The notes under the pieces: generated by a model
What the model saw: only the letters and a program-made list of their open reading frames with translations
The model's database searches: none
Told to the model about the DNA's origin: nothing
DNA from: Tetradesmus obliquus
Taxonomy: Eukaryota > Chlorophyta > Chlorophyceae > Sphaeropleales > Scenedesmaceae
Length of the DNA stretch: 64,000 nt
Assembly: GCA_030272155.1 (NCBI GenBank)
Contig: CP126193.1
Coordinates: 3,224,001-3,288,000 of the forward strand
Reading direction: 5' to 3'
Translations under genes and position numbers: made by a program
Shown here: in pieces, positions 3,671 through 63,652 of the stretch
Layout of the letters: every line of letters starts with the position of its first letter
How positions within the stretch are numbered: position 1 is the stretch's first letter

Positions 3671-3691
3671 CTGCTGCTGCTGCTGCTGCTG
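3671..3691. repeat. (CTG)7 triplet tract
   Basis: Seven CTG units on the plus strand encode the run of serines in the interrupted membrane protein on the minus strand. The length is prone to slippage. Confidence 0.8.
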
Positions 3692-4259: not shown

Positions 4260-4262
4260 GAT
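4260..4262. other. Target-site duplication (GAT), left copy
   Basis: GAT immediately precedes the left terminal CACTGGG of the array and is repeated directly after the right terminus at 63650-63652. Keeping one copy restores the host reading frame, which supports a true 3-bp duplication. Confidence 0.85.
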
Positions 4263-4287
4263 CACTGGGTCTCATATTCATTCTCAC
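4263..4287 (+). repeat. Left terminal inverted repeat of the array / module A
   Basis: It begins with 14 bp (CACTGGGTCTCATA) matched perfectly by the other end, then three mismatches, then ATTCTC matched again. CACTG termini with a 3-bp duplication recall CACTA/EnSpm elements, although the transposase inside the array belongs to another family. Confidence 0.8.
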
Positions 4288-4952
4288 AGGGCCTTTTGCC
4301 TGCCAAGTATCTGAGTTGCAACAGTATCAATCGCAAACTCGTACGTGTAAGGACGGTTACCACAGGCACACAATGCAGGGCTGAAGAGGCTGAATGCATG
4401 CACTCCTGCTGTGCTGCGTGCTGCTGCTGCTGTCGACCCCCCAGAAGTACTGCTTTTCAGCACATGTAACTTCCGCACAGAACAGCAACGAAAACGGTAC
4501 TTGGGGCAAGGCTGCCAACAGCACACATCAGCACAGCAAGGGGCCAGGAGCTGGTTGCAGGCAGCAGGTGGGCCAGCTGGGCTGCTGCTGCAGCGCGCTG
4601 CATCACTGTGTCACACCCAAATTATCGAGATGCACAAAACGCGTTATTTGCAAGTAGCAAAGCCAGGCAGGGCGAACATCACGAGTGCACACCAGCAATG
4701 TAATGCCATCACAGAAGCACACACAAGCCCACAGTGCATGGTCAGCCCTGCTGCTGCTGTCAGATGCAAGCATACTTTTTATGTTTCACTCGAAGCAGCA
4801 CAGCAGGGCCAAAACACGCAAATCCCCGCAGTTTCTTAGGGCGCCCAGGGACATACGTAAACTCGGTTTTCTGGACATGCACGCAGGCTGCGCACAATCT
4901 GAGCACACCAATAGATGCATACGGATCTTGACTATGTACCTGCATGTACGAG

Positions 4953-4977
4953 GCGAGAATCTTTATGAGACCCAGTG
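4953..4977 (-). repeat. Right terminal inverted repeat of module A (first internal copy)
   Basis: It ends TATGAGACCCAGTG, the reverse complement of the left terminus. Here it is followed by ACT and module B, whereas the last copy at 63625-63649 is followed by GAT and host sequence. Confidence 0.8.
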
Positions 4978-5165
4978 ACTTCAATTAAATATTCATGATT
5001 ACTCAACAGACAATACTGCATTCACAATACAGTGCTACACAATGACATAGCATGCTAATGCCGTCTGCACAGCCAAGCCGCACCCTCAACCAAGCACCGC
5101 CGGCGTCACTACTGCTCATGTCCAAGGTTCACCACTGACTAGGGTTTGTACTGTAACTGCAGAAC
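4978..5165 (+). promoter_or_regulatory. Transposase 5' flank in module B, AT-rich start
   Basis: The 188 bp before the transposase ATG open with an AT-rich patch (ATTAAATATT at 4983-4992) that could act as a TATA-like element about 175 bp upstream. They also contain CAATAC repeated within about 20 bp. This is the only promoter-like sequence between module A and the gene. Confidence 0.35.
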
Positions 5166-7078
5166 ATGACCTTGACAGTCGGCCTGGAGGCTGCCGCTGG
5201 CCTTGCATACAGGGCCAACAGGGGCAATGTCAATGCAGCCACAGCGGCCATGCGCACCATGCTAGAGGACGCAGGCCTGCCTGTGCCCTCTAATCCACTG
5301 CAATACATGCGGATTTGGGGCCCGCGCATGGATGTTGACGGCAACATTGTCGTCCCTGAGTCAGGCAGCGGCCGTCCGCCAAAACTGACTGATGCTCAGA
5401 CGCACACATGCTATGCTGAATGCCTCAACTGGTATGCAGCAGGCAGGCCGCGGCCGTACGAGTCGGTACACGCGCTCATGACAACCAACCCCGTGGTGCG
5501 TGACATCATCACAGCCGCTGGCGTCTCCGGCGAGACCCTGACCAGGCACATGAGGCAGATTGACCCGCACTTCCAGTATGGCAAGGTGCGCAACCGGCCC
5601 TACCTGGACGCGCAGCACAAGCGGGACAGGGTGACATCGTGTGGTGAGAAGCTGCAGGTGTTTGAGGAGCAGAAGCCTTGGGTGGTGTATGTGGATGAAA
5701 AGGTGATGTGCCTCAGCCAATGCTGCACCAGGGGCTGGTATAGCAGCGATGCAGAGGACTTTGCCTGGAGCATGCCACGGCTCACGCGCAACCGCAAGAC
5801 GATCAAGCTGAAGTACATCATTGGCGTCAACTACCAGCTGGGGCCTGTGTGGATCAAGTTCTTCACAGGCACAACTGGCATGCCATGGGACAGGGAGGGC
5901 TGTGCTTACCGGGTGAGTTCATGCCATGAACAGCTTGGGGGGCCTGCCAGCAGTAACGTGCTGCACCGCCTGCTGCAGAGCTGCTGCCCAGCGCACGGCG
6001 CGGCCGCACGGGTCATCAGCAGCACCCGCGTGAAGCCACAGCACACTGAACCCAAAGGCCAGTGCTGCTGTTGCCAGTGCCTCATCCTTGGCTTGCCTGA
6101 TTGCCAGCGTGTCACCCCGGTTGTTGCGCCTGCCATCCTCTGTATCTATGTGTTGCTCCCCTTGAACCTCAATCAGCAAGCTGTGTGGCTTCAGCAGCAT
6201 GGCATCCCACTTGTGCCGGTTCAGCCACAGCCCCTTGCTGCTGCCAGCTACCTGCAGCTGTATCTTCTTGCTAATAGCAACTGCCTCAACAGCATAGCAG
6301 TCAACAGCTGCAGACTGGTCCAGCAATTGATACAGCAACCTCTCATGCTTGCTGCCCCTGCGCGTGCACACGTGGCATGCGAATGGCTGCTGGCCACGGG
6401 ATGCTGTTTGCAGTGCCAGCAGCCTTGTGTGCTTCCTGTTGCAGCACTTGCACTTGAACACAAGCTTGAGGGTGCTGTATGCTGCTTGGTCCTTCAGCAG
6501 CATGTAGTTTAATTCTGGCTTATACAGCTGTTCAGCCTCCTTGCTAAACTTCCCCCTGGGCCTGCCGCCGCGTGCCGCTGCTGCTGTGCTGCTGCCTGCA
6601 CTGCTGCTGGTACCTGCAGACCACCACAAATGAGGAGGCAACAGGCATGACAGCTGATGAGTATGAGGATTGCATCTGGGACCTCAACCTCAACCTGGAC
6701 ACCATCTCAGAACGCCTGGGTTTGCAGCGCCACGCGCCCTGGCTGCTGTCACAGGACAACAGCACAGCCCACACCAAGGCTGAGCTTGCGTCGCTAGGCA
6801 TCTGGCCTGCAGGCAGGCTTTTGAGTTTGCCAGCCCTGAGTCCTGACATGCACAAGGTAGTGGAGCATGTGCATGCATACCTGACCCAGGCAATGACAGC
6901 CTGGCGTTATGCGCGCTGGAACAACAAGCCCAATGACAAGGAGTGCATAGCCAAGTTGGTGGAATTGTTCTTTGCCTACCCAGCTGCTTCTGTCCAGGCT
7001 GATATTGATAGCCTCCCAGCAACCTACCAGGCAATCATTAACAGTGGTGGGCTGTATGCCCCACCAGGCCTGAGGTAG
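5166..7078 (+). CDS. IS630/Tc1-mariner-type DDE transposase, two exons (unit 1)
   Basis: Exon 1 is 5166-5912 and exon 2 is 6620-7078. The intron 5913-6619 has a GTGAGT donor and a CTGCAG acceptor and lies in phase 0. The spliced product is 401 aa. Residues about 68-135 hold a helix-turn-helix region (GSGRPPKLTD onwards) followed by a linker typical of mariner proteins (VRNRPYLDAQHKRDR). The DDE domain shows VVYVDEK (D177), a strand near 214-238 (KLKYIIGVNY, then WIKFFTGTTG), LSQDNSTAH (D295) and SPDMHKVVEH (E331). The spacing from D295 to E331 is 35 residues (DD35E-like). The intron falls between the first and second catalytic aspartates, so unspliced RNA cannot give a complete active site. 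An unspliced frame runs on to 6512 only because the intron carries a gene on the other strand. The enzyme would act in the nucleus to cut and join transposon ends; which ends it recognises is not shown. Confidence 0.85.
5913..6619 (+). other. Spliceosomal intron of the transposase hosting an antisense gene (unit 1)
   Basis: This 707-bp intron is bounded by GTGAGT and CTGCAG. The nuclease frame on the minus strand ends at 5919, directly next to the donor hexamer (5913-5918), and runs open through the acceptor. The intron is therefore almost entirely coding sequence for the other strand. Confidence 0.8.
5919..6503 (-). CDS. Zinc-ribbon, PD-(D/E)xK / Vsr-like endonuclease nested antisense in the transposase intron (unit 1)
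   Basis: The frame is open from 6683 to 5919. I use the first in-frame ATG at 6503 (194 aa). Upstream only TTG at 6641 or CTG codons occur, so a longer N-terminus (240 aa from the TTG) would need a non-AUG start or a spliced upstream exon. Numbering from the TTG: C64/C67 and C89/C92 form a zinc ribbon; E100 lies in SKHERLLYQLL; D146 in HKWDAMLL; E158 and Q160 in LLIEVQGEQH; H164; then an alpha/beta end with D186 and GFSVLWL near 197-203. The order helix-E, D, E-x-Q, GEQH and a final strand matches restriction-like nucleases of the Vsr/DUF559 type, in which IEVDGEQH is common. It is probably a DNA nuclease acting in the nucleus; its target is unknown. It may act like a homing endonuclease for the intron or assist transposon mobility. 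It is not a reverse-transcriptase-linked endonuclease, since no such domain is present. Confidence 0.72.
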   Translation of the reverse strand: MLLKDQAAYSTLKLVFKCKCCNRKHTRLLALQTASRGQQPFACHVCTRRGSKHERLLYQLLDQSAAVDCYAVEAVAISKKIQLQVAGSSKGLWLNRHKWDAMLLKPHSLLIEVQGEQHIDTEDGRRNNRGDTLAIRQAKDEALATAALAFGFSVLWLHAGAADDPCGRAVRWAAALQQAVQHVTAGRPPKLFMA

Positions 7079-7929
7079 AGGTTGGTGCATGCACTGCTTG
7101 CGCAACTCATGCAGATGGGTTGCCTGCTGCTGTTCAACTTGGTTGCTGCAAGCTGTTGCAACAGCTGATGTGGTGTAGTGACAGCACTGCATATGCTGGA
7201 TGCATTTCATACCTGCTGCAACGTGATTGTCTTGGTTGTTGATGGGCATGGTGTGTTGGCACCCACAGCTGCTGGCGGCACTCGCGCTGCTGCTGCTGCC
7301 GAGTGCCTGGCAGCAATGCTCCATGCCTGACATGTGCCTGCAGGAGGCAATGGCACAGTAGAGATGGTATGTTACTGGCGGAGGTTCTGGTGCTGATAAG
7401 TAAATCGTGTAGAGCCTGGCTGCTGCTGAAATGCAGCAGACCAGTTCTGCCAGGAGGGCGCAGCTGCTGCTCTGGCCAGCATGCTGCACAGCTGCAATGC
7501 TCATGCTAGGTAGCACGCTGTGTGTTCTACTGAAATATCACTTCTGAACTGCGGATGCGTGTTGCAATACATCGATGTCTGGCCAGGTTGTTGCTCCTCA
7601 CCTGCTGCACGATTGCGTGATGCCTGCTCGTCCTCGCCCGACCTCCTGCTCCTGCCGTGCTCCTATCCGACATTTGAAGCCATATAGTATATTTCCGCGG
7701 TTGTGATCAGGGATTCCTGTCGCGCTACAGCAAGCAAGGTGGTAAGATCATGCCGAGTCAAACTTGGCAACGGCAAAGCTATGCGTGCAGCGATGCTTAC
7801 ATCCGGTGATAGTAGTCAGAAACTGCGAACTTCGATGCTGTATCACTGCAAATATTACCAGCGGCTGAGCTGCTGGTTCGCAACACACGTCAACAGCCCT
7901 AAACCCATGCCATGCAGGGGCTCGATACT
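7079..7929. other. Non-coding 3' part of module B (unit 1)
   Basis: These 851 bp follow the transposase stop and reach the next module A. The visible frames are short or are antisense shadows. A TATA-like patch (CATATAGTATAT near 7681-7692) lies in a locally AT-richer segment, and a pyrimidine-rich stretch (TCGTCCTCGCCCGACCTCCT) lies just before it. The segment ends GATACT, which abuts the next A terminus. It could hold a promoter, a replication start or captured host DNA. I cannot tell which. Confidence 0.4.
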
Positions 7930-8832
7930 CACTGGGTCTCATATTCATTCTCACAGGGCCTTTTGCCTGCCAAGTATCTGAGTTGCAACAGTATCAATCG
8001 CAAACTCGTACGTGTAAGGACGGTTACCACAGGCACACAATGCAGGGCTGAAGAGGCTGAATGCATGCACTCCTGCTGTGCTGCGTGCTGCTGCTGCTGT
8101 CGACCCCCCAGAAGTACTGCTTTTCAGCACATGTAACTTCCGCACAGAACAGCAACGAAAACGGTACTTGGGGCAAGGCTGCCAACAGCACACATCAGCA
8201 CAGCAAGGGGCCAGGAGCTGGTTGCAGGCAGCAGGTGGGCCAGCTGGGCTGCTGCTGCAGCGCGCTGCATCACTGTGTCACACCCAAATTATCGAGATGC
8301 ACAAAACGCGTTATTTGCAAGTAGCAAAGCCAGGCAGGGCGAACATCACGAGTGCACACCAGCAATGTAATGCCATCACAGAAGCACACACAAGCCCACA
8401 GTGCATGGTCAGCCCTGCTGCTGCTGTCAGATGCAAGCATACTTTTTATGTTTCACTCGAAGCAGCACAGCAGGGCCAAAACACGCAAATCCCCGCAGTT
8501 TCTTAGGGCGCCCAGGGACATACGTAAACTCGGTTTTCTGGACATGCACGCAGGCTGCGCACAATCTGAGCACACCAATAGATGCATACGGATCTTGACT
8601 ATGTACCTGCATGTACGAGGCGAGAATCTTTATGAGACCCAGTGACTTCAATTAAATATTCATGATTACTCAACAGACAATACTGCATTCACAATACAGT
8701 GCTACACAATGACATAGCATGCTAATGCCGTCTGCACAGCCAAGCCGCACCCTCAACCAAGCACCGCCGGCGTCACTACTGCTCATGTCCAAGGTTCACC
8801 ACTGACTAGGGTTTGTACTGTAACTGCAGAAC

Positions 8833-10745
8833 ATGACCTTGACAGTCGGCCTGGAGGCTGCCGCTGGCCTTGCATACAGGGCCAACAGGGGCAATGTCAA
8901 TGCAGCCACAGCGGCCATGCGCACCATGCTAGAGGACGCAGGCCTGCCTGTGCCCTCTAATCCACTGCAATACATGCGGATTTGGGGCCCGCGCATGGAT
9001 GTTGACGGCAACATTGTCGTCCCTGAGTCAGGCAGCGGCCGTCCGCCAAAACTGACTGATGCTCAGACGCACACATGCTATGCTGAATGCCTCAACTGGT
9101 ATGCAGCAGGCAGGCCGCGGCCGTACGAGTCGGTACACGCGCTCATGACAACCAACCCCGTGGTGCGTGACATCATCACAGCCGCTGGCGTCTCCGGCGA
9201 GACCCTGACCAGGCACATGAGGCAGATTGACCCGCACTTCCAGTATGGCAAGGTGCGCAACCGGCCCTACCTGGACGCGCAGCACAAGCGGGACAGGGTG
9301 ACATCGTGTGGTGAGAAGCTGCAGGTGTTTGAGGAGCAGAAGCCTTGGGTGGTGTATGTGGATGAAAAGGTGATGTGCCTCAGCCAATGCTGCACCAGGG
9401 GCTGGTATAGCAGCGATGCAGAGGACTTTGCCTGGAGCATGCCACGGCTCACGCGCAACCGCAAGACGATCAAGCTGAAGTACATCATTGGCGTCAACTA
9501 CCAGCTGGGGCCTGTGTGGATCAAGTTCTTCACAGGCACAACTGGCATGCCATGGGACAGGGAGGGCTGTGCTTACCGGGTGAGTTCATGCCATGAACAG
9601 CTTGGGGGGCCTGCCAGCAGTAACGTGCTGCACCGCCTGCTGCAGAGCTGCTGCCCAGCGCACGGCGCGGCCGCACGGGTCATCAGCAGCACCCGCGTGA
9701 AGCCACAGCACACTGAACCCAAAGGCCAGTGCTGCTGTTGCCAGTGCCTCATCCTTGGCTTGCCTGATTGCCAGCGTGTCACCCCGGTTGTTGCGCCTGC
9801 CATCCTCTGTATCTATGTGTTGCTCCCCTTGAACCTCAATCAGCAAGCTGTGTGGCTTCAGCAGCATGGCATCCCACTTGTGCCGGTTCAGCCACAGCCC
9901 CTTGCTGCTGCCAGCTACCTGCAGCTGTATCTTCTTGCTAATAGCAACTGCCTCAACAGCATAGCAGTCAACAGCTGCAGACTGGTCCAGCAATTGATAC
10001 AGCAACCTCTCATGCTTGCTGCCCCTGCGCGTGCACACGTGGCATGCGAATGGCTGCTGGCCACGGGATGCTGTTTGCAGTGCCAGCAGCCTTGTGTGCT
10101 TCCTGTTGCAGCACTTGCACTTGAACACAAGCTTGAGGGTGCTGTATGCTGCTTGGTCCTTCAGCAGCATGTAGTTTAATTCTGGCTTATACAGCTGTTC
10201 AGCCTCCTTGCTAAACTTCCCCCTGGGCCTGCCGCCGCGTGCCGCTGCTGCTGTGCTGCTGCCTGCACTGCTGCTGGTACCTGCAGACCACCACAAATGA
10301 GGAGGCAACAGGCATGACAGCTGATGAGTATGAGGATTGCATCTGGGACCTCAACCTCAACCTGGACACCATCTCAGAACGCCTGGGTTTGCAGCGCCAC
10401 GCGCCCTGGCTGCTGTCACAGGACAACAGCACAGCCCACACCAAGGCTGAGCTTGCGTCGCTAGGCATCTGGCCTGCAGGCAGGCTTTTGAGTTTGCCAG
10501 CCCTGAGTCCTGACATGCACAAGGTAGTGGAGCATGTGCATGCATACCTGACCCAGGCAATGACAGCCTGGCGTTATGCGCGCTGGAACAACAAGCCCAA
10601 TGACAAGGAGTGCATAGCCAAGTTGGTGGAATTGTTCTTTGCCTACCCAGCTGCTTCTGTCCAGGCTGATATTGATAGCCTCCCAGCAACCTACCAGGCA
10701 ATCATTAACAGTGGTGGGCTGTATGCCCCACCAGGCCTGAGGTAG
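8833..10745 (+). CDS. DDE transposase, unit 2
   Basis: Translations match unit 1. Exons 8833-9579 and 10287-10745. Confidence 0.84.
9586..10170 (-). CDS. Intron-nested nuclease, unit 2
   Basis: Translation matches unit 1. The TTG-initiated frame extends to 10308. Confidence 0.7.
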   Translation of the reverse strand: MLLKDQAAYSTLKLVFKCKCCNRKHTRLLALQTASRGQQPFACHVCTRRGSKHERLLYQLLDQSAAVDCYAVEAVAISKKIQLQVAGSSKGLWLNRHKWDAMLLKPHSLLIEVQGEQHIDTEDGRRNNRGDTLAIRQAKDEALATAALAFGFSVLWLHAGAADDPCGRAVRWAAALQQAVQHVTAGRPPKLFMA

Positions 10746-12499
10746 AGGTTGGTGCATGCACTGCTTGCGCAACTCATGCAGATGGGTTGCCTGCTGCTGT
10801 TCAACTTGGTTGCTGCAAGCTGTTGCAACAGCTGATGTGGTGTAGTGACAGCACTGCATATGCTGGATGCATTTCATACCTGCTGCAACGTGATTGTCTT
10901 GGTTGTTGATGGGCATGGTGTGTTGGCACCCACAGCTGCTGGCGGCACTCGCGCTGCTGCTGCTGCCGAGTGCCTGGCAGCAATGCTCCATGCCTGACAT
11001 GTGCCTGCAGGAGGCAATGGCACAGTAGAGATGGTATGTTACTGGCGGAGGTTCTGGTGCTGATAAGTAAATCGTGTAGAGCCTGGCTGCTGCTGAAATG
11101 CAGCAGACCAGTTCTGCCAGGAGGGCGCAGCTGCTGCTCTGGCCAGCATGCTGCACAGCTGCAATGCTCATGCTAGGTAGCACGCTGTGTGTTCTACTGA
11201 AATATCACTTCTGAACTGCGGATGCGTGTTGCAATACATCGATGTCTGGCCAGGTTGTTGCTCCTCACCTGCTGCACGATTGCGTGATGCCTGCTCGTCC
11301 TCGCCCGACCTCCTGCTCCTGCCGTGCTCCTATCCGACATTTGAAGCCATATAGTATATTTCCGCGGTTGTGATCAGGGATTCCTGTCGCGCTACAGCAA
11401 GCAAGGTGGTAAGATCATGCCGAGTCAAACTTGGCAACGGCAAAGCTATGCGTGCAGCGATGCTTACATCCGGTGATAGTAGTCAGAAACTGCGAACTTC
11501 GATGCTGTATCACTGCAAATATTACCAGCGGCTGAGCTGCTGGTTCGCAACACACGTCAACAGCCCTAAACCCATGCCATGCAGGGGCTCGATACTCACT
11601 GGGTCTCATATTCATTCTCACAGGGCCTTTTGCCTGCCAAGTATCTGAGTTGCAACAGTATCAATCGCAAACTCGTACGTGTAAGGACGGTTACCACAGG
11701 CACACAATGCAGGGCTGAAGAGGCTGAATGCATGCACTCCTGCTGTGCTGCGTGCTGCTGCTGCTGTCGACCCCCCAGAAGTACTGCTTTTCAGCACATG
11801 TAACTTCCGCACAGAACAGCAACGAAAACGGTACTTGGGGCAAGGCTGCCAACAGCACACATCAGCACAGCAAGGGGCCAGGAGCTGGTTGCAGGCAGCA
11901 GGTGGGCCAGCTGGGCTGCTGCTGCAGCGCGCTGCATCACTGTGTCACACCCAAATTATCGAGATGCACAAAACGCGTTATTTGCAAGTAGCAAAGCCAG
12001 GCAGGGCGAACATCACGAGTGCACACCAGCAATGTAATGCCATCACAGAAGCACACACAAGCCCACAGTGCATGGTCAGCCCTGCTGCTGCTGTCAGATG
12101 CAAGCATACTTTTTATGTTTCACTCGAAGCAGCACAGCAGGGCCAAAACACGCAAATCCCCGCAGTTTCTTAGGGCGCCCAGGGACATACGTAAACTCGG
12201 TTTTCTGGACATGCACGCAGGCTGCGCACAATCTGAGCACACCAATAGATGCATACGGATCTTGACTATGTACCTGCATGTACGAGGCGAGAATCTTTAT
12301 GAGACCCAGTGACTTCAATTAAATATTCATGATTACTCAACAGACAATACTGCATTCACAATACAGTGCTACACAATGACATAGCATGCTAATGCCGTCT
12401 GCACAGCCAAGCCGCACCCTCAACCAAGCACCGCCGGCGTCACTACTGCTCATGTCCAAGGTTCACCACTGACTAGGGTTTGTACTGTAACTGCAGAAC

Positions 12500-14412
12500 A
12501 TGACCTTGACAGTCGGCCTGGAGGCTGCCGCTGGCCTTGCATACAGGGCCAACAGGGGCAATGTCAATGCAGCCACAGCGGCCATGCGCACCATGCTAGA
12601 GGACGCAGGCCTGCCTGTGCCCTCTAATCCACTGCAATACATGCGGATTTGGGGCCCGCGCATGGATGTTGACGGCAACATTGTCGTCCCTGAGTCAGGC
12701 AGCGGCCGTCCGCCAAAACTGACTGATGCTCAGACGCACACATGCTATGCTGAATGCCTCAACTGGTATGCAGCAGGCAGGCCGCGGCCGTACGAGTCGG
12801 TACACGCGCTCATGACAACCAACCCCGTGGTGCGTGACATCATCACAGCCGCTGGCGTCTCCGGCGAGACCCTGACCAGGCACATGAGGCAGATTGACCC
12901 GCACTTCCAGTATGGCAAGGTGCGCAACCGGCCCTACCTGGACGCGCAGCACAAGCGGGACAGGGTGACATCGTGTGGTGAGAAGCTGCAGGTGTTTGAG
13001 GAGCAGAAGCCTTGGGTGGTGTATGTGGATGAAAAGGTGATGTGCCTCAGCCAATGCTGCACCAGGGGCTGGTATAGCAGCGATGCAGAGGACTTTGCCT
13101 GGAGCATGCCACGGCTCACGCGCAACCGCAAGACGATCAAGCTGAAGTACATCATTGGCGTCAACTACCAGCTGGGGCCTGTGTGGATCAAGTTCTTCAC
13201 AGGCACAACTGGCATGCCATGGGACAGGGAGGGCTGTGCTTACCGGGTGAGTTCATGCCATGAACAGCTTGGGGGGCCTGCCAGCAGTAACGTGCTGCAC
13301 CGCCTGCTGCAGAGCTGCTGCCCAGCGCACGGCGCGGCCGCACGGGTCATCAGCAGCACCCGCGTGAAGCCACAGCACACTGAACCCAAAGGCCAGTGCT
13401 GCTGTTGCCAGTGCCTCATCCTTGGCTTGCCTGATTGCCAGCGTGTCACCCCGGTTGTTGCGCCTGCCATCCTCTGTATCTATGTGTTGCTCCCCTTGAA
13501 CCTCAATCAGCAAGCTGTGTGGCTTCAGCAGCATGGCATCCCACTTGTGCCGGTTCAGCCACAGCCCCTTGCTGCTGCCAGCTACCTGCAGCTGTATCTT
13601 CTTGCTAATAGCAACTGCCTCAACAGCATAGCAGTCAACAGCTGCAGACTGGTCCAGCAATTGATACAGCAACCTCTCATGCTTGCTGCCCCTGCGCGTG
13701 CACACGTGGCATGCGAATGGCTGCTGGCCACGGGATGCTGTTTGCAGTGCCAGCAGCCTTGTGTGCTTCCTGTTGCAGCACTTGCACTTGAACACAAGCT
13801 TGAGGGTGCTGTATGCTGCTTGGTCCTTCAGCAGCATGTAGTTTAATTCTGGCTTATACAGCTGTTCAGCCTCCTTGCTAAACTTCCCCCTGGGCCTGCC
13901 GCCGCGTGCCGCTGCTGCTGTGCTGCTGCCTGCACTGCTGCTGGTACCTGCAGACCACCACAAATGAGGAGGCAACAGGCATGACAGCTGATGAGTATGA
14001 GGATTGCATCTGGGACCTCAACCTCAACCTGGACACCATCTCAGAACGCCTGGGTTTGCAGCGCCACGCGCCCTGGCTGCTGTCACAGGACAACAGCACA
14101 GCCCACACCAAGGCTGAGCTTGCGTCGCTAGGCATCTGGCCTGCAGGCAGGCTTTTGAGTTTGCCAGCCCTGAGTCCTGACATGCACAAGGTAGTGGAGC
14201 ATGTGCATGCATACCTGACCCAGGCAATGACAGCCTGGCGTTATGCGCGCTGGAACAACAAGCCCAATGACAAGGAGTGCATAGCCAAGTTGGTGGAATT
14301 GTTCTTTGCCTACCCAGCTGCTTCTGTCCAGGCTGATATTGATAGCCTCCCAGCAACCTACCAGGCAATCATTAACAGTGGTGGGCTGTATGCCCCACCA
14401 GGCCTGAGGTAG
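12500..14412 (+). CDS. DDE transposase, unit 3
   Basis: Translations match unit 1. Exons 12500-13246 and 13954-14412. Confidence 0.84.
13253..13837 (-). CDS. Intron-nested nuclease, unit 3
   Basis: Translation matches unit 1. The TTG-initiated frame extends to 13975. Confidence 0.7.
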   Translation of the reverse strand: MLLKDQAAYSTLKLVFKCKCCNRKHTRLLALQTASRGQQPFACHVCTRRGSKHERLLYQLLDQSAAVDCYAVEAVAISKKIQLQVAGSSKGLWLNRHKWDAMLLKPHSLLIEVQGEQHIDTEDGRRNNRGDTLAIRQAKDEALATAALAFGFSVLWLHAGAADDPCGRAVRWAAALQQAVQHVTAGRPPKLFMA

Positions 14413-16166
14413 AGGTTGGTGCATGCACTGCTTGCGCAACTCATGCAGATGGGTTGCCTGCTGCTGTTCAACTTGGTTGCTGCAAGCTGTTGCAACAGCT
14501 GATGTGGTGTAGTGACAGCACTGCATATGCTGGATGCATTTCATACCTGCTGCAACGTGATTGTCTTGGTTGTTGATGGGCATGGTGTGTTGGCACCCAC
14601 AGCTGCTGGCGGCACTCGCGCTGCTGCTGCTGCCGAGTGCCTGGCAGCAATGCTCCATGCCTGACATGTGCCTGCAGGAGGCAATGGCACAGTAGAGATG
14701 GTATGTTACTGGCGGAGGTTCTGGTGCTGATAAGTAAATCGTGTAGAGCCTGGCTGCTGCTGAAATGCAGCAGACCAGTTCTGCCAGGAGGGCGCAGCTG
14801 CTGCTCTGGCCAGCATGCTGCACAGCTGCAATGCTCATGCTAGGTAGCACGCTGTGTGTTCTACTGAAATATCACTTCTGAACTGCGGATGCGTGTTGCA
14901 ATACATCGATGTCTGGCCAGGTTGTTGCTCCTCACCTGCTGCACGATTGCGTGATGCCTGCTCGTCCTCGCCCGACCTCCTGCTCCTGCCGTGCTCCTAT
15001 CCGACATTTGAAGCCATATAGTATATTTCCGCGGTTGTGATCAGGGATTCCTGTCGCGCTACAGCAAGCAAGGTGGTAAGATCATGCCGAGTCAAACTTG
15101 GCAACGGCAAAGCTATGCGTGCAGCGATGCTTACATCCGGTGATAGTAGTCAGAAACTGCGAACTTCGATGCTGTATCACTGCAAATATTACCAGCGGCT
15201 GAGCTGCTGGTTCGCAACACACGTCAACAGCCCTAAACCCATGCCATGCAGGGGCTCGATACTCACTGGGTCTCATATTCATTCTCACAGGGCCTTTTGC
15301 CTGCCAAGTATCTGAGTTGCAACAGTATCAATCGCAAACTCGTACGTGTAAGGACGGTTACCACAGGCACACAATGCAGGGCTGAAGAGGCTGAATGCAT
15401 GCACTCCTGCTGTGCTGCGTGCTGCTGCTGCTGTCGACCCCCCAGAAGTACTGCTTTTCAGCACATGTAACTTCCGCACAGAACAGCAACGAAAACGGTA
15501 CTTGGGGCAAGGCTGCCAACAGCACACATCAGCACAGCAAGGGGCCAGGAGCTGGTTGCAGGCAGCAGGTGGGCCAGCTGGGCTGCTGCTGCAGCGCGCT
15601 GCATCACTGTGTCACACCCAAATTATCGAGATGCACAAAACGCGTTATTTGCAAGTAGCAAAGCCAGGCAGGGCGAACATCACGAGTGCACACCAGCAAT
15701 GTAATGCCATCACAGAAGCACACACAAGCCCACAGTGCATGGTCAGCCCTGCTGCTGCTGTCAGATGCAAGCATACTTTTTATGTTTCACTCGAAGCAGC
15801 ACAGCAGGGCCAAAACACGCAAATCCCCGCAGTTTCTTAGGGCGCCCAGGGACATACGTAAACTCGGTTTTCTGGACATGCACGCAGGCTGCGCACAATC
15901 TGAGCACACCAATAGATGCATACGGATCTTGACTATGTACCTGCATGTACGAGGCGAGAATCTTTATGAGACCCAGTGACTTCAATTAAATATTCATGAT
16001 TACTCAACAGACAATACTGCATTCACAATACAGTGCTACACAATGACATAGCATGCTAATGCCGTCTGCACAGCCAAGCCGCACCCTCAACCAAGCACCG
16101 CCGGCGTCACTACTGCTCATGTCCAAGGTTCACCACTGACTAGGGTTTGTACTGTAACTGCAGAAC

Positions 16167-18079
16167 ATGACCTTGACAGTCGGCCTGGAGGCTGCCGCTG
16201 GCCTTGCATACAGGGCCAACAGGGGCAATGTCAATGCAGCCACAGCGGCCATGCGCACCATGCTAGAGGACGCAGGCCTGCCTGTGCCCTCTAATCCACT
16301 GCAATACATGCGGATTTGGGGCCCGCGCATGGATGTTGACGGCAACATTGTCGTCCCTGAGTCAGGCAGCGGCCGTCCGCCAAAACTGACTGATGCTCAG
16401 ACGCACACATGCTATGCTGAATGCCTCAACTGGTATGCAGCAGGCAGGCCGCGGCCGTACGAGTCGGTACACGCGCTCATGACAACCAACCCCGTGGTGC
16501 GTGACATCATCACAGCCGCTGGCGTCTCCGGCGAGACCCTGACCAGGCACATGAGGCAGATTGACCCGCACTTCCAGTATGGCAAGGTGCGCAACCGGCC
16601 CTACCTGGACGCGCAGCACAAGCGGGACAGGGTGACATCGTGTGGTGAGAAGCTGCAGGTGTTTGAGGAGCAGAAGCCTTGGGTGGTGTATGTGGATGAA
16701 AAGGTGATGTGCCTCAGCCAATGCTGCACCAGGGGCTGGTATAGCAGCGATGCAGAGGACTTTGCCTGGAGCATGCCACGGCTCACGCGCAACCGCAAGA
16801 CGATCAAGCTGAAGTACATCATTGGCGTCAACTACCAGCTGGGGCCTGTGTGGATCAAGTTCTTCACAGGCACAACTGGCATGCCATGGGACAGGGAGGG
16901 CTGTGCTTACCGGGTGAGTTCATGCCATGAACAGCTTGGGGGGCCTGCCAGCAGTAACGTGCTGCACCGCCTGCTGCAGAGCTGCTGCCCAGCGCACGGC
17001 GCGGCCGCACGGGTCATCAGCAGCACCCGCGTGAAGCCACAGCACACTGAACCCAAAGGCCAGTGCTGCTGTTGCCAGTGCCTCATCCTTGGCTTGCCTG
17101 ATTGCCAGCGTGTCACCCCGGTTGTTGCGCCTGCCATCCTCTGTATCTATGTGTTGCTCCCCTTGAACCTCAATCAGCAAGCTGTGTGGCTTCAGCAGCA
17201 TGGCATCCCACTTGTGCCGGTTCAGCCACAGCCCCTTGCTGCTGCCAGCTACCTGCAGCTGTATCTTCTTGCTAATAGCAACTGCCTCAACAGCATAGCA
17301 GTCAACAGCTGCAGACTGGTCCAGCAATTGATACAGCAACCTCTCATGCTTGCTGCCCCTGCGCGTGCACACGTGGCATGCGAATGGCTGCTGGCCACGG
17401 GATGCTGTTTGCAGTGCCAGCAGCCTTGTGTGCTTCCTGTTGCAGCACTTGCACTTGAACACAAGCTTGAGGGTGCTGTATGCTGCTTGGTCCTTCAGCA
17501 GCATGTAGTTTAATTCTGGCTTATACAGCTGTTCAGCCTCCTTGCTAAACTTCCCCCTGGGCCTGCCGCCGCGTGCCGCTGCTGCTGTGCTGCTGCCTGC
17601 ACTGCTGCTGGTACCTGCAGACCACCACAAATGAGGAGGCAACAGGCATGACAGCTGATGAGTATGAGGATTGCATCTGGGACCTCAACCTCAACCTGGA
17701 CACCATCTCAGAACGCCTGGGTTTGCAGCGCCACGCGCCCTGGCTGCTGTCACAGGACAACAGCACAGCCCACACCAAGGCTGAGCTTGCGTCGCTAGGC
17801 ATCTGGCCTGCAGGCAGGCTTTTGAGTTTGCCAGCCCTGAGTCCTGACATGCACAAGGTAGTGGAGCATGTGCATGCATACCTGACCCAGGCAATGACAG
17901 CCTGGCGTTATGCGCGCTGGAACAACAAGCCCAATGACAAGGAGTGCATAGCCAAGTTGGTGGAATTGTTCTTTGCCTACCCAGCTGCTTCTGTCCAGGC
18001 TGATATTGATAGCCTCCCAGCAACCTACCAGGCAATCATTAACAGTGGTGGGCTGTATGCCCCACCAGGCCTGAGGTAG
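16167..18079 (+). CDS. DDE transposase, unit 4
   Basis: Translations match unit 1. Exons 16167-16913 and 17621-18079. Confidence 0.84.
16920..17504 (-). CDS. Intron-nested nuclease, unit 4
   Basis: Translation matches unit 1. The TTG-initiated frame extends to 17642. Confidence 0.7.
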   Translation of the reverse strand: MLLKDQAAYSTLKLVFKCKCCNRKHTRLLALQTASRGQQPFACHVCTRRGSKHERLLYQLLDQSAAVDCYAVEAVAISKKIQLQVAGSSKGLWLNRHKWDAMLLKPHSLLIEVQGEQHIDTEDGRRNNRGDTLAIRQAKDEALATAALAFGFSVLWLHAGAADDPCGRAVRWAAALQQAVQHVTAGRPPKLFMA

Positions 18080-19833
18080 AGGTTGGTGCATGCACTGCTT
18101 GCGCAACTCATGCAGATGGGTTGCCTGCTGCTGTTCAACTTGGTTGCTGCAAGCTGTTGCAACAGCTGATGTGGTGTAGTGACAGCACTGCATATGCTGG
18201 ATGCATTTCATACCTGCTGCAACGTGATTGTCTTGGTTGTTGATGGGCATGGTGTGTTGGCACCCACAGCTGCTGGCGGCACTCGCGCTGCTGCTGCTGC
18301 CGAGTGCCTGGCAGCAATGCTCCATGCCTGACATGTGCCTGCAGGAGGCAATGGCACAGTAGAGATGGTATGTTACTGGCGGAGGTTCTGGTGCTGATAA
18401 GTAAATCGTGTAGAGCCTGGCTGCTGCTGAAATGCAGCAGACCAGTTCTGCCAGGAGGGCGCAGCTGCTGCTCTGGCCAGCATGCTGCACAGCTGCAATG
18501 CTCATGCTAGGTAGCACGCTGTGTGTTCTACTGAAATATCACTTCTGAACTGCGGATGCGTGTTGCAATACATCGATGTCTGGCCAGGTTGTTGCTCCTC
18601 ACCTGCTGCACGATTGCGTGATGCCTGCTCGTCCTCGCCCGACCTCCTGCTCCTGCCGTGCTCCTATCCGACATTTGAAGCCATATAGTATATTTCCGCG
18701 GTTGTGATCAGGGATTCCTGTCGCGCTACAGCAAGCAAGGTGGTAAGATCATGCCGAGTCAAACTTGGCAACGGCAAAGCTATGCGTGCAGCGATGCTTA
18801 CATCCGGTGATAGTAGTCAGAAACTGCGAACTTCGATGCTGTATCACTGCAAATATTACCAGCGGCTGAGCTGCTGGTTCGCAACACACGTCAACAGCCC
18901 TAAACCCATGCCATGCAGGGGCTCGATACTCACTGGGTCTCATATTCATTCTCACAGGGCCTTTTGCCTGCCAAGTATCTGAGTTGCAACAGTATCAATC
19001 GCAAACTCGTACGTGTAAGGACGGTTACCACAGGCACACAATGCAGGGCTGAAGAGGCTGAATGCATGCACTCCTGCTGTGCTGCGTGCTGCTGCTGCTG
19101 TCGACCCCCCAGAAGTACTGCTTTTCAGCACATGTAACTTCCGCACAGAACAGCAACGAAAACGGTACTTGGGGCAAGGCTGCCAACAGCACACATCAGC
19201 ACAGCAAGGGGCCAGGAGCTGGTTGCAGGCAGCAGGTGGGCCAGCTGGGCTGCTGCTGCAGCGCGCTGCATCACTGTGTCACACCCAAATTATCGAGATG
19301 CACAAAACGCGTTATTTGCAAGTAGCAAAGCCAGGCAGGGCGAACATCACGAGTGCACACCAGCAATGTAATGCCATCACAGAAGCACACACAAGCCCAC
19401 AGTGCATGGTCAGCCCTGCTGCTGCTGTCAGATGCAAGCATACTTTTTATGTTTCACTCGAAGCAGCACAGCAGGGCCAAAACACGCAAATCCCCGCAGT
19501 TTCTTAGGGCGCCCAGGGACATACGTAAACTCGGTTTTCTGGACATGCACGCAGGCTGCGCACAATCTGAGCACACCAATAGATGCATACGGATCTTGAC
19601 TATGTACCTGCATGTACGAGGCGAGAATCTTTATGAGACCCAGTGACTTCAATTAAATATTCATGATTACTCAACAGACAATACTGCATTCACAATACAG
19701 TGCTACACAATGACATAGCATGCTAATGCCGTCTGCACAGCCAAGCCGCACCCTCAACCAAGCACCGCCGGCGTCACTACTGCTCATGTCCAAGGTTCAC
19801 CACTGACTAGGGTTTGTACTGTAACTGCAGAAC

Positions 19834-21746
19834 ATGACCTTGACAGTCGGCCTGGAGGCTGCCGCTGGCCTTGCATACAGGGCCAACAGGGGCAATGTCA
19901 ATGCAGCCACAGCGGCCATGCGCACCATGCTAGAGGACGCAGGCCTGCCTGTGCCCTCTAATCCACTGCAATACATGCGGATTTGGGGCCCGCGCATGGA
20001 TGTTGACGGCAACATTGTCGTCCCTGAGTCAGGCAGCGGCCGTCCGCCAAAACTGACTGATGCTCAGACGCACACATGCTATGCTGAATGCCTCAACTGG
20101 TATGCAGCAGGCAGGCCGCGGCCGTACGAGTCGGTACACGCGCTCATGACAACCAACCCCGTGGTGCGTGACATCATCACAGCCGCTGGCGTCTCCGGCG
20201 AGACCCTGACCAGGCACATGAGGCAGATTGACCCGCACTTCCAGTATGGCAAGGTGCGCAACCGGCCCTACCTGGACGCGCAGCACAAGCGGGACAGGGT
20301 GACATCGTGTGGTGAGAAGCTGCAGGTGTTTGAGGAGCAGAAGCCTTGGGTGGTGTATGTGGATGAAAAGGTGATGTGCCTCAGCCAATGCTGCACCAGG
20401 GGCTGGTATAGCAGCGATGCAGAGGACTTTGCCTGGAGCATGCCACGGCTCACGCGCAACCGCAAGACGATCAAGCTGAAGTACATCATTGGCGTCAACT
20501 ACCAGCTGGGGCCTGTGTGGATCAAGTTCTTCACAGGCACAACTGGCATGCCATGGGACAGGGAGGGCTGTGCTTACCGGGTGAGTTCATGCCATGAACA
20601 GCTTGGGGGGCCTGCCAGCAGTAACGTGCTGCACCGCCTGCTGCAGAGCTGCTGCCCAGCGCACGGCGCGGCCGCACGGGTCATCAGCAGCACCCGCGTG
20701 AAGCCACAGCACACTGAACCCAAAGGCCAGTGCTGCTGTTGCCAGTGCCTCATCCTTGGCTTGCCTGATTGCCAGCGTGTCACCCCGGTTGTTGCGCCTG
20801 CCATCCTCTGTATCTATGTGTTGCTCCCCTTGAACCTCAATCAGCAAGCTGTGTGGCTTCAGCAGCATGGCATCCCACTTGTGCCGGTTCAGCCACAGCC
20901 CCTTGCTGCTGCCAGCTACCTGCAGCTGTATCTTCTTGCTAATAGCAACTGCCTCAACAGCATAGCAGTCAACAGCTGCAGACTGGTCCAGCAATTGATA
21001 CAGCAACCTCTCATGCTTGCTGCCCCTGCGCGTGCACACGTGGCATGCGAATGGCTGCTGGCCACGGGATGCTGTTTGCAGTGCCAGCAGCCTTGTGTGC
21101 TTCCTGTTGCAGCACTTGCACTTGAACACAAGCTTGAGGGTGCTGTATGCTGCTTGGTCCTTCAGCAGCATGTAGTTTAATTCTGGCTTATACAGCTGTT
21201 CAGCCTCCTTGCTAAACTTCCCCCTGGGCCTGCCGCCGCGTGCCGCTGCTGCTGTGCTGCTGCCTGCACTGCTGCTGGTACCTGCAGACCACCACAAATG
21301 AGGAGGCAACAGGCATGACAGCTGATGAGTATGAGGATTGCATCTGGGACCTCAACCTCAACCTGGACACCATCTCAGAACGCCTGGGTTTGCAGCGCCA
21401 CGCGCCCTGGCTGCTGTCACAGGACAACAGCACAGCCCACACCAAGGCTGAGCTTGCGTCGCTAGGCATCTGGCCTGCAGGCAGGCTTTTGAGTTTGCCA
21501 GCCCTGAGTCCTGACATGCACAAGGTAGTGGAGCATGTGCATGCATACCTGACCCAGGCAATGACAGCCTGGCGTTATGCGCGCTGGAACAACAAGCCCA
21601 ATGACAAGGAGTGCATAGCCAAGTTGGTGGAATTGTTCTTTGCCTACCCAGCTGCTTCTGTCCAGGCTGATATTGATAGCCTCCCAGCAACCTACCAGGC
21701 AATCATTAACAGTGGTGGGCTGTATGCCCCACCAGGCCTGAGGTAG
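19834..21746 (+). CDS. DDE transposase, unit 5
   Basis: Translations match unit 1. Exons 19834-20580 and 21288-21746. Confidence 0.84.
20587..21171 (-). CDS. Intron-nested nuclease, unit 5
   Basis: Translation matches unit 1. The TTG-initiated frame extends to 21309. Confidence 0.7.
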   Translation of the reverse strand: MLLKDQAAYSTLKLVFKCKCCNRKHTRLLALQTASRGQQPFACHVCTRRGSKHERLLYQLLDQSAAVDCYAVEAVAISKKIQLQVAGSSKGLWLNRHKWDAMLLKPHSLLIEVQGEQHIDTEDGRRNNRGDTLAIRQAKDEALATAALAFGFSVLWLHAGAADDPCGRAVRWAAALQQAVQHVTAGRPPKLFMA

Positions 21747-23500
21747 AGGTTGGTGCATGCACTGCTTGCGCAACTCATGCAGATGGGTTGCCTGCTGCTG
21801 TTCAACTTGGTTGCTGCAAGCTGTTGCAACAGCTGATGTGGTGTAGTGACAGCACTGCATATGCTGGATGCATTTCATACCTGCTGCAACGTGATTGTCT
21901 TGGTTGTTGATGGGCATGGTGTGTTGGCACCCACAGCTGCTGGCGGCACTCGCGCTGCTGCTGCTGCCGAGTGCCTGGCAGCAATGCTCCATGCCTGACA
22001 TGTGCCTGCAGGAGGCAATGGCACAGTAGAGATGGTATGTTACTGGCGGAGGTTCTGGTGCTGATAAGTAAATCGTGTAGAGCCTGGCTGCTGCTGAAAT
22101 GCAGCAGACCAGTTCTGCCAGGAGGGCGCAGCTGCTGCTCTGGCCAGCATGCTGCACAGCTGCAATGCTCATGCTAGGTAGCACGCTGTGTGTTCTACTG
22201 AAATATCACTTCTGAACTGCGGATGCGTGTTGCAATACATCGATGTCTGGCCAGGTTGTTGCTCCTCACCTGCTGCACGATTGCGTGATGCCTGCTCGTC
22301 CTCGCCCGACCTCCTGCTCCTGCCGTGCTCCTATCCGACATTTGAAGCCATATAGTATATTTCCGCGGTTGTGATCAGGGATTCCTGTCGCGCTACAGCA
22401 AGCAAGGTGGTAAGATCATGCCGAGTCAAACTTGGCAACGGCAAAGCTATGCGTGCAGCGATGCTTACATCCGGTGATAGTAGTCAGAAACTGCGAACTT
22501 CGATGCTGTATCACTGCAAATATTACCAGCGGCTGAGCTGCTGGTTCGCAACACACGTCAACAGCCCTAAACCCATGCCATGCAGGGGCTCGATACTCAC
22601 TGGGTCTCATATTCATTCTCACAGGGCCTTTTGCCTGCCAAGTATCTGAGTTGCAACAGTATCAATCGCAAACTCGTACGTGTAAGGACGGTTACCACAG
22701 GCACACAATGCAGGGCTGAAGAGGCTGAATGCATGCACTCCTGCTGTGCTGCGTGCTGCTGCTGCTGTCGACCCCCCAGAAGTACTGCTTTTCAGCACAT
22801 GTAACTTCCGCACAGAACAGCAACGAAAACGGTACTTGGGGCAAGGCTGCCAACAGCACACATCAGCACAGCAAGGGGCCAGGAGCTGGTTGCAGGCAGC
22901 AGGTGGGCCAGCTGGGCTGCTGCTGCAGCGCGCTGCATCACTGTGTCACACCCAAATTATCGAGATGCACAAAACGCGTTATTTGCAAGTAGCAAAGCCA
23001 GGCAGGGCGAACATCACGAGTGCACACCAGCAATGTAATGCCATCACAGAAGCACACACAAGCCCACAGTGCATGGTCAGCCCTGCTGCTGCTGTCAGAT
23101 GCAAGCATACTTTTTATGTTTCACTCGAAGCAGCACAGCAGGGCCAAAACACGCAAATCCCCGCAGTTTCTTAGGGCGCCCAGGGACATACGTAAACTCG
23201 GTTTTCTGGACATGCACGCAGGCTGCGCACAATCTGAGCACACCAATAGATGCATACGGATCTTGACTATGTACCTGCATGTACGAGGCGAGAATCTTTA
23301 TGAGACCCAGTGACTTCAATTAAATATTCATGATTACTCAACAGACAATACTGCATTCACAATACAGTGCTACACAATGACATAGCATGCTAATGCCGTC
23401 TGCACAGCCAAGCCGCACCCTCAACCAAGCACCGCCGGCGTCACTACTGCTCATGTCCAAGGTTCACCACTGACTAGGGTTTGTACTGTAACTGCAGAAC

Positions 23501-25413
23501 ATGACCTTGACAGTCGGCCTGGAGGCTGCCGCTGGCCTTGCATACAGGGCCAACAGGGGCAATGTCAATGCAGCCACAGCGGCCATGCGCACCATGCTAG
23601 AGGACGCAGGCCTGCCTGTGCCCTCTAATCCACTGCAATACATGCGGATTTGGGGCCCGCGCATGGATGTTGACGGCAACATTGTCGTCCCTGAGTCAGG
23701 CAGCGGCCGTCCGCCAAAACTGACTGATGCTCAGACGCACACATGCTATGCTGAATGCCTCAACTGGTATGCAGCAGGCAGGCCGCGGCCGTACGAGTCG
23801 GTACACGCGCTCATGACAACCAACCCCGTGGTGCGTGACATCATCACAGCCGCTGGCGTCTCCGGCGAGACCCTGACCAGGCACATGAGGCAGATTGACC
23901 CGCACTTCCAGTATGGCAAGGTGCGCAACCGGCCCTACCTGGACGCGCAGCACAAGCGGGACAGGGTGACATCGTGTGGTGAGAAGCTGCAGGTGTTTGA
24001 GGAGCAGAAGCCTTGGGTGGTGTATGTGGATGAAAAGGTGATGTGCCTCAGCCAATGCTGCACCAGGGGCTGGTATAGCAGCGATGCAGAGGACTTTGCC
24101 TGGAGCATGCCACGGCTCACGCGCAACCGCAAGACGATCAAGCTGAAGTACATCATTGGCGTCAACTACCAGCTGGGGCCTGTGTGGATCAAGTTCTTCA
24201 CAGGCACAACTGGCATGCCATGGGACAGGGAGGGCTGTGCTTACCGGGTGAGTTCATGCCATGAACAGCTTGGGGGGCCTGCCAGCAGTAACGTGCTGCA
24301 CCGCCTGCTGCAGAGCTGCTGCCCAGCGCACGGCGCGGCCGCACGGGTCATCAGCAGCACCCGCGTGAAGCCACAGCACACTGAACCCAAAGGCCAGTGC
24401 TGCTGTTGCCAGTGCCTCATCCTTGGCTTGCCTGATTGCCAGCGTGTCACCCCGGTTGTTGCGCCTGCCATCCTCTGTATCTATGTGTTGCTCCCCTTGA
24501 ACCTCAATCAGCAAGCTGTGTGGCTTCAGCAGCATGGCATCCCACTTGTGCCGGTTCAGCCACAGCCCCTTGCTGCTGCCAGCTACCTGCAGCTGTATCT
24601 TCTTGCTAATAGCAACTGCCTCAACAGCATAGCAGTCAACAGCTGCAGACTGGTCCAGCAATTGATACAGCAACCTCTCATGCTTGCTGCCCCTGCGCGT
24701 GCACACGTGGCATGCGAATGGCTGCTGGCCACGGGATGCTGTTTGCAGTGCCAGCAGCCTTGTGTGCTTCCTGTTGCAGCACTTGCACTTGAACACAAGC
24801 TTGAGGGTGCTGTATGCTGCTTGGTCCTTCAGCAGCATGTAGTTTAATTCTGGCTTATACAGCTGTTCAGCCTCCTTGCTAAACTTCCCCCTGGGCCTGC
24901 CGCCGCGTGCCGCTGCTGCTGTGCTGCTGCCTGCACTGCTGCTGGTACCTGCAGACCACCACAAATGAGGAGGCAACAGGCATGACAGCTGATGAGTATG
25001 AGGATTGCATCTGGGACCTCAACCTCAACCTGGACACCATCTCAGAACGCCTGGGTTTGCAGCGCCACGCGCCCTGGCTGCTGTCACAGGACAACAGCAC
25101 AGCCCACACCAAGGCTGAGCTTGCGTCGCTAGGCATCTGGCCTGCAGGCAGGCTTTTGAGTTTGCCAGCCCTGAGTCCTGACATGCACAAGGTAGTGGAG
25201 CATGTGCATGCATACCTGACCCAGGCAATGACAGCCTGGCGTTATGCGCGCTGGAACAACAAGCCCAATGACAAGGAGTGCATAGCCAAGTTGGTGGAAT
25301 TGTTCTTTGCCTACCCAGCTGCTTCTGTCCAGGCTGATATTGATAGCCTCCCAGCAACCTACCAGGCAATCATTAACAGTGGTGGGCTGTATGCCCCACC
25401 AGGCCTGAGGTAG
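23501..25413 (+). CDS. DDE transposase, unit 6
   Basis: Translations match unit 1. Exons 23501-24247 and 24955-25413. Confidence 0.84.
24254..24838 (-). CDS. Intron-nested nuclease, unit 6
   Basis: Translation matches unit 1. The TTG-initiated frame extends to 24976. Confidence 0.7.
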   Translation of the reverse strand: MLLKDQAAYSTLKLVFKCKCCNRKHTRLLALQTASRGQQPFACHVCTRRGSKHERLLYQLLDQSAAVDCYAVEAVAISKKIQLQVAGSSKGLWLNRHKWDAMLLKPHSLLIEVQGEQHIDTEDGRRNNRGDTLAIRQAKDEALATAALAFGFSVLWLHAGAADDPCGRAVRWAAALQQAVQHVTAGRPPKLFMA

Positions 25414-62083: not shown

Positions 62084-62934
62084 AGGTTGGTGCATGCACT
62101 GCTTGCGCAACTCATGCAGATGGGTTGCCTGCTGCTGTTCAACTTGGTTGCTGCAAGCTGTTGCAACAGCTGATGTGGTGTAGTGACAGCACTGCATATG
62201 CTGGATGCATTTCATACCTGCTGCAACGTGATTGTCTTGGTTGTTGATGGGCATGGTGTGTTGGCACCCACAGCTGCTGGCGGCACTCGCGCTGCTGCTG
62301 CTGCCGAGTGCCTGGCAGCAATGCTCCATGCCTGACATGTGCCTGCAGGAGGCAATGGCACAGTAGAGATGGTATGTTACTGGCGGAGGTTCTGGTGCTG
62401 ATAAGTAAATCGTGTAGAGCCTGGCTGCTGCTGAAATGCAGCAGACCAGTTCTGCCAGGAGGGCGCAGCTGCTGCTCTGGCCAGCATGCTGCACAGCTGC
62501 AATGCTCATGCTAGGTAGCACGCTGTGTGTTCTACTGAAATATCACTTCTGAACTGCGGATGCGTGTTGCAATACATCGATGTCTGGCCAGGTTGTTGCT
62601 CCTCACCTGCTGCACGATTGCGTGATGCCTGCTCGTCCTCGCCCGACCTCCTGCTCCTGCCGTGCTCCTATCCGACATTTGAAGCCATATAGTATATTTC
62701 CGCGGTTGTGATCAGGGATTCCTGTCGCGCTACAGCAAGCAAGGTGGTAAGATCATGCCGAGTCAAACTTGGCAACGGCAAAGCTATGCGTGCAGCGATG
62801 CTTACATCCGGTGATAGTAGTCAGAAACTGCGAACTTCGATGCTGTATCACTGCAAATATTACCAGCGGCTGAGCTGCTGGTTCGCAACACACGTCAACA
62901 GCCCTAAACCCATGCCATGCAGGGGCTCGATACT

Positions 62935-63649: not shown

Positions 63650-63652
63650 GAT
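63650..63652. other. Target-site duplication (GAT), right copy
   Basis: It matches GAT at 4260-4262. On the host coding strand it reads ATC, and a single ATC joins the two gene halves in frame. Confidence 0.85.

Follow-up and report, generated by a model that had tools for sequence, protein, structure and literature searches.

An antisense reading frame with nuclease signatures inside a candidate spliceosomal intron of a Tc1/mariner-like transposase gene

We describe here a transposase gene of the IS630/Tc1/mariner type that is interrupted by a 707-bp intron-like segment (positions 5913-6619 of the window, by which we mean the whole 64,000-nucleotide stretch of DNA that was analysed), and on the opposite strand of that segment a reading frame that appears to encode a nuclease. 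Three features can be read from the letters of the DNA: a DDE frame in two parts, splice sites that fit the consensus, and an antisense frame with biased codon usage and nuclease signatures. The comparisons draw on the window itself and on prokaryotic, viral, phage, and plasmid collections. Our favored explanation, to which we give about an even chance of being correct, is a Tc1/mariner/IS630-type transposon with an accessory endonuclease gene, placed antisense in a spliceosomal intron of the element's own transposase gene. We regard the observation as confirmed: a known pattern (a transposon with an accessory nuclease) may be present in a new form, and there is a real chance of something stranger.

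Results

A transposase frame split within its DDE domain

The first exon (plus strand, 5166..5912; 249 aa) contains the first catalytic aspartate, in the motif YVDEK, and the second exon (plus strand, 6620..7078; 152 aa plus stop) contains the second aspartate, in QDN, and the glutamate, in VVEHVH, in a DD35E arrangement. The frame of exon 1 alone matches the IS630 profile NF033545 at 15.8 bits (E = 0.0073); joining the exons into a 401-aa DDE transposase raises the match to 25.4 bits (E = 8.8e-6), with an alignment that covers residues 64-347 of the spliced protein and is continuous over the exon junction. The proposal, made in the original prediction, that a GTGAGT...CTGCAG intron at 5913-6619 divides a transposase gene is supported by this gain. 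The unspliced 451-aa transposase frame gave zero matches at E<=10 in a profile search. Because the score of 25.4 bits lies below the curated NF033545 cut-off of 100 bits, and the spliced protein has zero Pfam matches at E<=10, the transposase is, as judged from its sequence, a remote member of the IS630/Tc1/mariner group.

The catalytic triad of the spliced protein consists of D177, D295, and E331. In IS630/Tc1/mariner transposases about 34-37 residues normally lie between the second aspartate and the last acidic residue of the DDE/D triad, and the 35 residues that separate D295 from E331 fall within this norm. The intron lies inside the DDE domain, between the first and second aspartates (72 residues past the former and 46 ahead of the latter). 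A single-sequence structure model of exon 1 reached a pLDDT of 37. We also note that the plus-strand transposase frame (5157-6509) continues past the donor for 199 codons without a stop, and an unspliced transcript would therefore yield a protein with a different C-terminus. No transposase relative, whether it carried the intron or lacked it, was confirmed in viral contigs (scans and pattern search) or turned up in plasmids and phages (tblastn).

Splice signals at the ends of the intervening segment

The candidate spliceosomal intron (plus strand, 5913..6619, GTGAGT...CTGCAG, 707 bp) has GT-AG ends, with a consensus donor (GTGAGT, 5913-5918) and acceptor (CTGCAG, 6614-6619), and its removal restores the reading frame. 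The GTGAGT at 5913 is the sole copy of that hexamer on the plus strand of the first 3667-bp unit of the tandem array described below. Ahead of the acceptor lies an AG-free stretch of 82 nt, which ranks fourth (tied with one other) among the 184 AGs examined, and the pyrimidine content at the acceptor, 0.62 over 40 nt, ranks 10th in the same set. When eight donors and seven acceptors near the intron ends were combined, 21 pairs preserved the frame; the top-scoring among these were the pairs using donor 5913, which agrees with the consensus at 8 of 9 positions. Since four further AGs (6634, 6637, 6661, and 6667) are also in frame with this donor, CTGCAG at 6614-6619 is best regarded as the probable acceptor among five AGs. 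From these signals, taken together, we infer that 5913-6619 is removed by splicing.

The same signals bear on another explanation, in which a nuclease-bearing segment landed in the transposase gene and broke it, its ends resemble splice sites by chance, and the element relies on other copies. Such an insertion gains some plausibility from the frequency of CTGCAG, which occurs 9 times on the plus strand of one unit, and from the four alternative AGs in frame with the same donor. We nevertheless consider it distinctly improbable, as the frame is restored at a strong splice consensus that combines the unit's only plus-strand GTGAGT with a long AG-free tract, and no target duplication at 5912/6620 was seen by eye.

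Coding signal of the antisense frame

The minus strand contains a frame that runs uninterrupted from 6683 to a stop codon at 5921-5919. This stop had been placed one base past the donor hexamer, whereas it in fact directly abuts the hexamer with no gap. The intron had likewise been described as filled almost end to end by the antisense frame, which holds for the open frame (701 of 707 bp, all but the donor hexamer) but not for the ORF that starts at the first ATG (minus strand, 5919..6503; 194 aa), which covers 585 of the 707 bp (83%). This ATG, at 6503, is codon 40 of the frame, and the protein that follows has a putative zinc ribbon and then E, D, and ExQ motifs. The 180 bp of open frame upstream of it (minus strand, 6504..6683) contain no ATG and overlap the pyrimidine-rich tract of the plus strand as well as sequence antisense to exon 2; the 116 bp between ATG 6503 and the acceptor also serve as the pyrimidine-rich tract of the plus-strand intron.

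The length of the antisense frame is weak evidence of coding, because an open frame of 232 codons or more also appeared in 55 of 2000 introns after Markov shuffling, and the plus-strand frame is itself open for 199 codons of the intron; long frames are common in this sequence. Codon usage is stronger evidence for an antisense gene than length. Codon scores were trained on a small set of 652 codons (the two transposase exons and the host frame). The nuclease frame reaches 0.270 per codon, and none of the other five exceeds 0.133. No shuffle among 2000 attained 0.270; their mean was 0.146, and the best came close at 0.267. The nuclease frame also exceeds the training exons when these are left out (0.124, 0.169, and 0.128), an excess that is not fully explained and that is measured against a small training set. 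It is the best of the six frames in 4 of 4 quarters, in the last one narrowly (0.268 versus 0.227).

These measurements can be set against a further alternative: that the nuclease frame is a relic, decaying or silent, or else belongs to a longer antisense gene whose 5' exon has escaped notice, and has no tie to the transposon's life cycle. The ATG-less 180 bp of upstream open frame would fit such an origin, and several upstream exons for the nuclease can be drawn, none of them compelling. Codon bias extends over the whole frame and the motifs are intact, however, and the methionine at 6503 precedes the putative zinc ribbon; we regard this reading as improbable. A viral-type N-terminal repeat upstream of Met 6503, suggested by a pairwise resemblance, failed a profile test against 2000 shuffles, which also speaks against this reading.

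Relationship of the antisense protein to viral nucleases

In our reading, the antisense protein belongs, with a divergent sequence, to the zinc-ribbon PD-(D/E)xK group of viral nucleases. The assignment to a zinc-ribbon/PD-(D/E)xK protein was already part of the original prediction and finds support in its sequence, and its apparent relatives are viral homing endonucleases and group I intron endonucleases. Among PHROG families, the long frame matches phrog_4538 (5.3e-7), a zinc-finger family (0.00099), a homing endonuclease family (0.009), an HNH family (0.015), and a family of unknown function (0.038); the Met-initiated protein matches phrog_4538 (3.5e-7), the zinc-finger family (0.0006), and phrog_9084, "homing endonuclease" (0.0054). 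When the LLIEVQGEQHID stretch, which contains the QGEQH motif, was masked, the zinc-finger match stayed at 6.2e-4, phrog_4538 weakened to 0.014, and the other matches vanished. One reversed and five shuffled control sequences gave nothing below 0.4 against PHROG. The protein went unrecognized by Pfam, NCBIfam, and PADLOC: its only Pfam match was UPF0167 at 0.12, and the curated profiles (Pfam DUF2726 and DUF4379, and those of NCBIfam) did not match it.

For a closer comparison, a DNA pattern for IE[FY]QGEQHY yielded 115 viral stretches and from these 108 proteins of at least 90 aa, of which 69, trimmed, were used to build a panel profile. The nuclease scores 19.4 bits against this profile, above 1000 of 1000 shuffles and at the top of 76 ORFs of the window (the next scoring 6.4), a score that is partly circular because the recruiting pattern was modelled on the nuclease's own motif; with that motif masked it scores 4.6 bits, compared with 4.5 for the best of 1000 shuffles. 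In an alignment of 45 proteins (the nuclease and 44 viral proteins), the residues E93, D139, E151, Q153, G154, E155, Q156, H157, and D179 are invariant; those invariant outside the recruiting motif are C85, S90, E93, D139, and D179, at an identity of only 13-23%. The protein thereby displays the E, D, and ExQ(GEQH) motifs of the zinc-ribbon PD-(D/E)xK homing endonuclease group, of which the IExQGEQH part was the recruiting motif. Its candidate zinc-binding cysteines form two CxxC-like pairs, with only C85 invariant in the alignment. A profile of the alignment matches the homing endonuclease of phage PEf771 at 97.5% probability, a result that places the viral group and not the nuclease itself. 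DUF2726 is matched by 16 of the 45 alignment members, and the nuclease itself matches no Pfam family. The RAP domain, matched by 2 of the 45, was dropped since the nuclease does not match it.

Structural comparison gave a similar picture. An AlphaFold model of the nuclease, for which the input alignment consisted of viral homologues, has a mean pLDDT of 72.9 and a pTM of 0.60, and Foldseek returned 25 viral matches for it at E<=0.001, with query TM-scores of only 0.25-0.49; these include a Pithovirus "group I intron putative endonuclease," phage homing endonucleases, and DUF2726 proteins. Against the PDB, Foldseek found nothing at E<=0.001 (the best match, at 0.018 with probability 0.28, being to phenuivirus cap-snatching endonucleases), sequence matches below E=0.1 were to C2H2-type zinc fingers (best 0.0032), and a search with the alignment profile reached only 0.049. 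Relatives of the nuclease were not confirmed in scans and a pattern search of viral and prokaryotic contigs, and none turned up in plasmids (tblastn). The single phage match by tblastn, to a homing endonuclease, was weak (E=0.6), and a scan found zero relatives of that match. Rfam gave no match. Under the favored explanation, the nuclease would be transcribed from the opposite strand and would cut DNA.

A resemblance to homing and group I intron endonucleases raises the question of whether the intron itself is mobile. A homing endonuclease encoded in a spliceosomal intron could cut intronless transposase alleles at the exon junction, whereupon repair would copy in the intron together with its gene; we hold this to be unlikely, though worth weighing. 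Splicing might then conceal the insertion from the transposase. In such a case, a homing endonuclease would have colonized the niche of the nuclear spliceosomal intron, and a selfish intron would spread among transposon copies as one mobile element parasitizing another, which again we think has a small, appreciable chance of being correct. Beyond the family resemblance, the tight fit of the open frame (701 of 707 bp, with the stop abutting the donor) and the insertion within the DDE domain, between the first and second aspartates, would suit homing. The intron, on the other hand, also contains 116 bp that separate the ATG from the acceptor; its site, 72 residues past the first aspartate and 46 ahead of the second, does not coincide with a catalytic motif; homing does not call for an antisense orientation; and an intronless relative was not found in viral contigs, plasmids, or phages.

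A tandem array bounded by CACTG-ended elements

The split gene belongs to a larger structure that the original prediction did not mention, a 16-unit tandem array with CACTG-ended elements. In the array (4263..63649), a 715-bp CACTG-ended element occurs 17 times, and between its copies lie 16 identical inner segments of 2952 bp, each of which holds the transposase and the nuclease; the period is 3667 bp. Its 16 units of 3667 bp show zero differences, and the 17th 715-bp element closes the array; exon 1, for instance, recurs at +3667n for n=0-15. As the units are identical, they count as one observation, and the copies add no independent evidence of conservation. Such perfect identity would reflect either very recent amplification or an assembly artefact.

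The first 715-bp element, which is MITE-like, lies at 4263..4977 and has inverted ends CACTGGGTCTCATA / TATGAGACCCAGTG. Elements of the CACTA/EnSpm type have CACTR terminal inverted repeats and make a 3-bp target duplication. The 715-bp element agrees with this description, with its CACTGGGTCTCATA ends, GAT/GAT outside the array, and ACT/ACT inside it. The whole array is flanked by a 3-bp target-site duplication, GAT at 4260..4262 on the left and at 63650..63652 on the right, and 715-bp copies inside the array are flanked by ACT/ACT (4978-4980 and 7927-7929). In a search for an EnSpm transposase of its own, the frame 4351-4839 of the 715-bp element gave zero Pfam matches at E<=0.1, and the length of 715 bp suggests a non-autonomous element. 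Joining the flanks of the array restores an open minus-strand frame, which places the array within a host reading frame. This broken host gene (minus strand, 3508-4262 and 63653-64000) has a weak TRP-channel match (PF06011, E=0.0091, below the cut-off). The host frame, together with the style of the splice sites and a CTG-rich composition, points to a green alga. At the left end of the window, a minus-strand frame at about 1-1500 may resemble the NRT2 nitrate transporters of green algae; Pfam and PDB searches of the piece gave zero matches.

The ACT found on both sides of the 715-bp element suggests that, by the time of its entry, the inner segment was a circle or already repeated in tandem. 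The events could be explained simply if a 715-bp copy in the host recombined with a circle that also bore this element, and the product was then amplified.

Termini of the transposase element itself (TIR/TA) were sought as pairs by exact 7-seeds with ungapped extension, which yielded none, and by gapped alignment over the inner junction, where weak termini could be missed because the result is the single best alignment. That alignment is a 46-bp imperfect palindrome (7270-7315) downstream of the transposase, which is unconvincing as a pair of element ends (score 38, compared with up to 35 in 50 mononucleotide shuffles). The surrounding DNA (7260-7325) is predicted to form a hairpin of -22.1 kcal/mol (z -3.3, with 2 of 200 shuffles as good).

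Discussion

An accessory nuclease could operate as follows. The transposase intron would be spliced out, and the nuclease would be transcribed from the other strand and cut DNA; that the cut favors the element's own retention or spread is conjecture as to its function. Element-free sites might, for example, be broken, and repair would then copy the element in. A comparable idea of cut-and-copy retention exists for TnpB-like transposon nucleases. With the nuclease placed antisense, one segment could yield both proteins and leave the transposase uninterrupted, and the two may be coupled through antisense transcription that runs over exon 1. Among 100 virus records (drawn from the 115 motif-bearing stretches), 1 had an IS630 match, and that a partial one, and the viral nuclease group is therefore not habitually paired with IS630-type transposases, which tells against this reading. 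We still favor an accessory role, which appears to have a closer published precedent than homing does (PMC3627910).

Several consequences would follow. If the accessory reading is correct, Tc1/mariner elements would have recruited a further nuclease fold, in an unusually compact antisense design. If instead a homing endonuclease occupies the spliceosomal intron of a transposase, this would bear on the origin and persistence of nuclear mobile introns. Separately, the perfect array of 16 units between CACTG ends offers a testable instance of amplification associated with transposons.

In a limited literature search, we found no precedent for a nuclease gene lying antisense inside a transposase intron, and nothing on DUF559 with algal transposons or on an introner with homing. 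The nearest published system comprises three mariner elements of algal viruses, each encoding a transposase and an endonuclease. One of these endonucleases is a GIY-YIG protein, another a hypothetical restriction enzyme, and the third is EcoRII-like; their genes occupy the element's 3' portion (PMC3627910). These elements resemble the present one in having an endonuclease gene together with a Tc1/mariner-type transposase in an algal context, and differ in that their nuclease lies in the 3' portion, whereas here it is of the zinc-ribbon PD-(D/E)xK type and its gene is antisense within an intron. The main text of that paper nowhere uses the word "intron" (PMC3627910).

Introners resemble the candidate intron in that DNA-transposon-derived sequence serves as a spliceosomal intron (PMC9860276); the word "endonuclease" is absent from the main text of that report, whereas here the intron bears its own putative nuclease gene. 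Fanzor nucleases, which sit in Mariner and other eukaryotic transposons, share with the present protein, as do TnpB proteins, the character of an accessory nuclease on diverse DNA transposons including Mariner (PMC3627910, PMC10711439). They are RNA-guided and belong to another family, none of which was among the matches of the nuclease in Pfam and NCBIfam profile searches.

Homing endonuclease genes, finally, are often embedded in self-splicing introns and inteins, and the EDxHD enzyme I-Bth0305I is named among the homing endonucleases in the same source (PMC3943268). The likeness of our protein to the zinc-ribbon, Vsr-like or DUF2726-type, viral homing endonucleases, drawn from the 44 aligned viral proteins, consists of a putative zinc-binding part ahead of a domain that bears E, D, and ExQGEQH motifs, together with the fold matches. 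The viral proteins come from virus records, some of them annotated as group I intron proteins, whereas the protein described here is encoded antisense in the GT-AG intron of a transposase gene.
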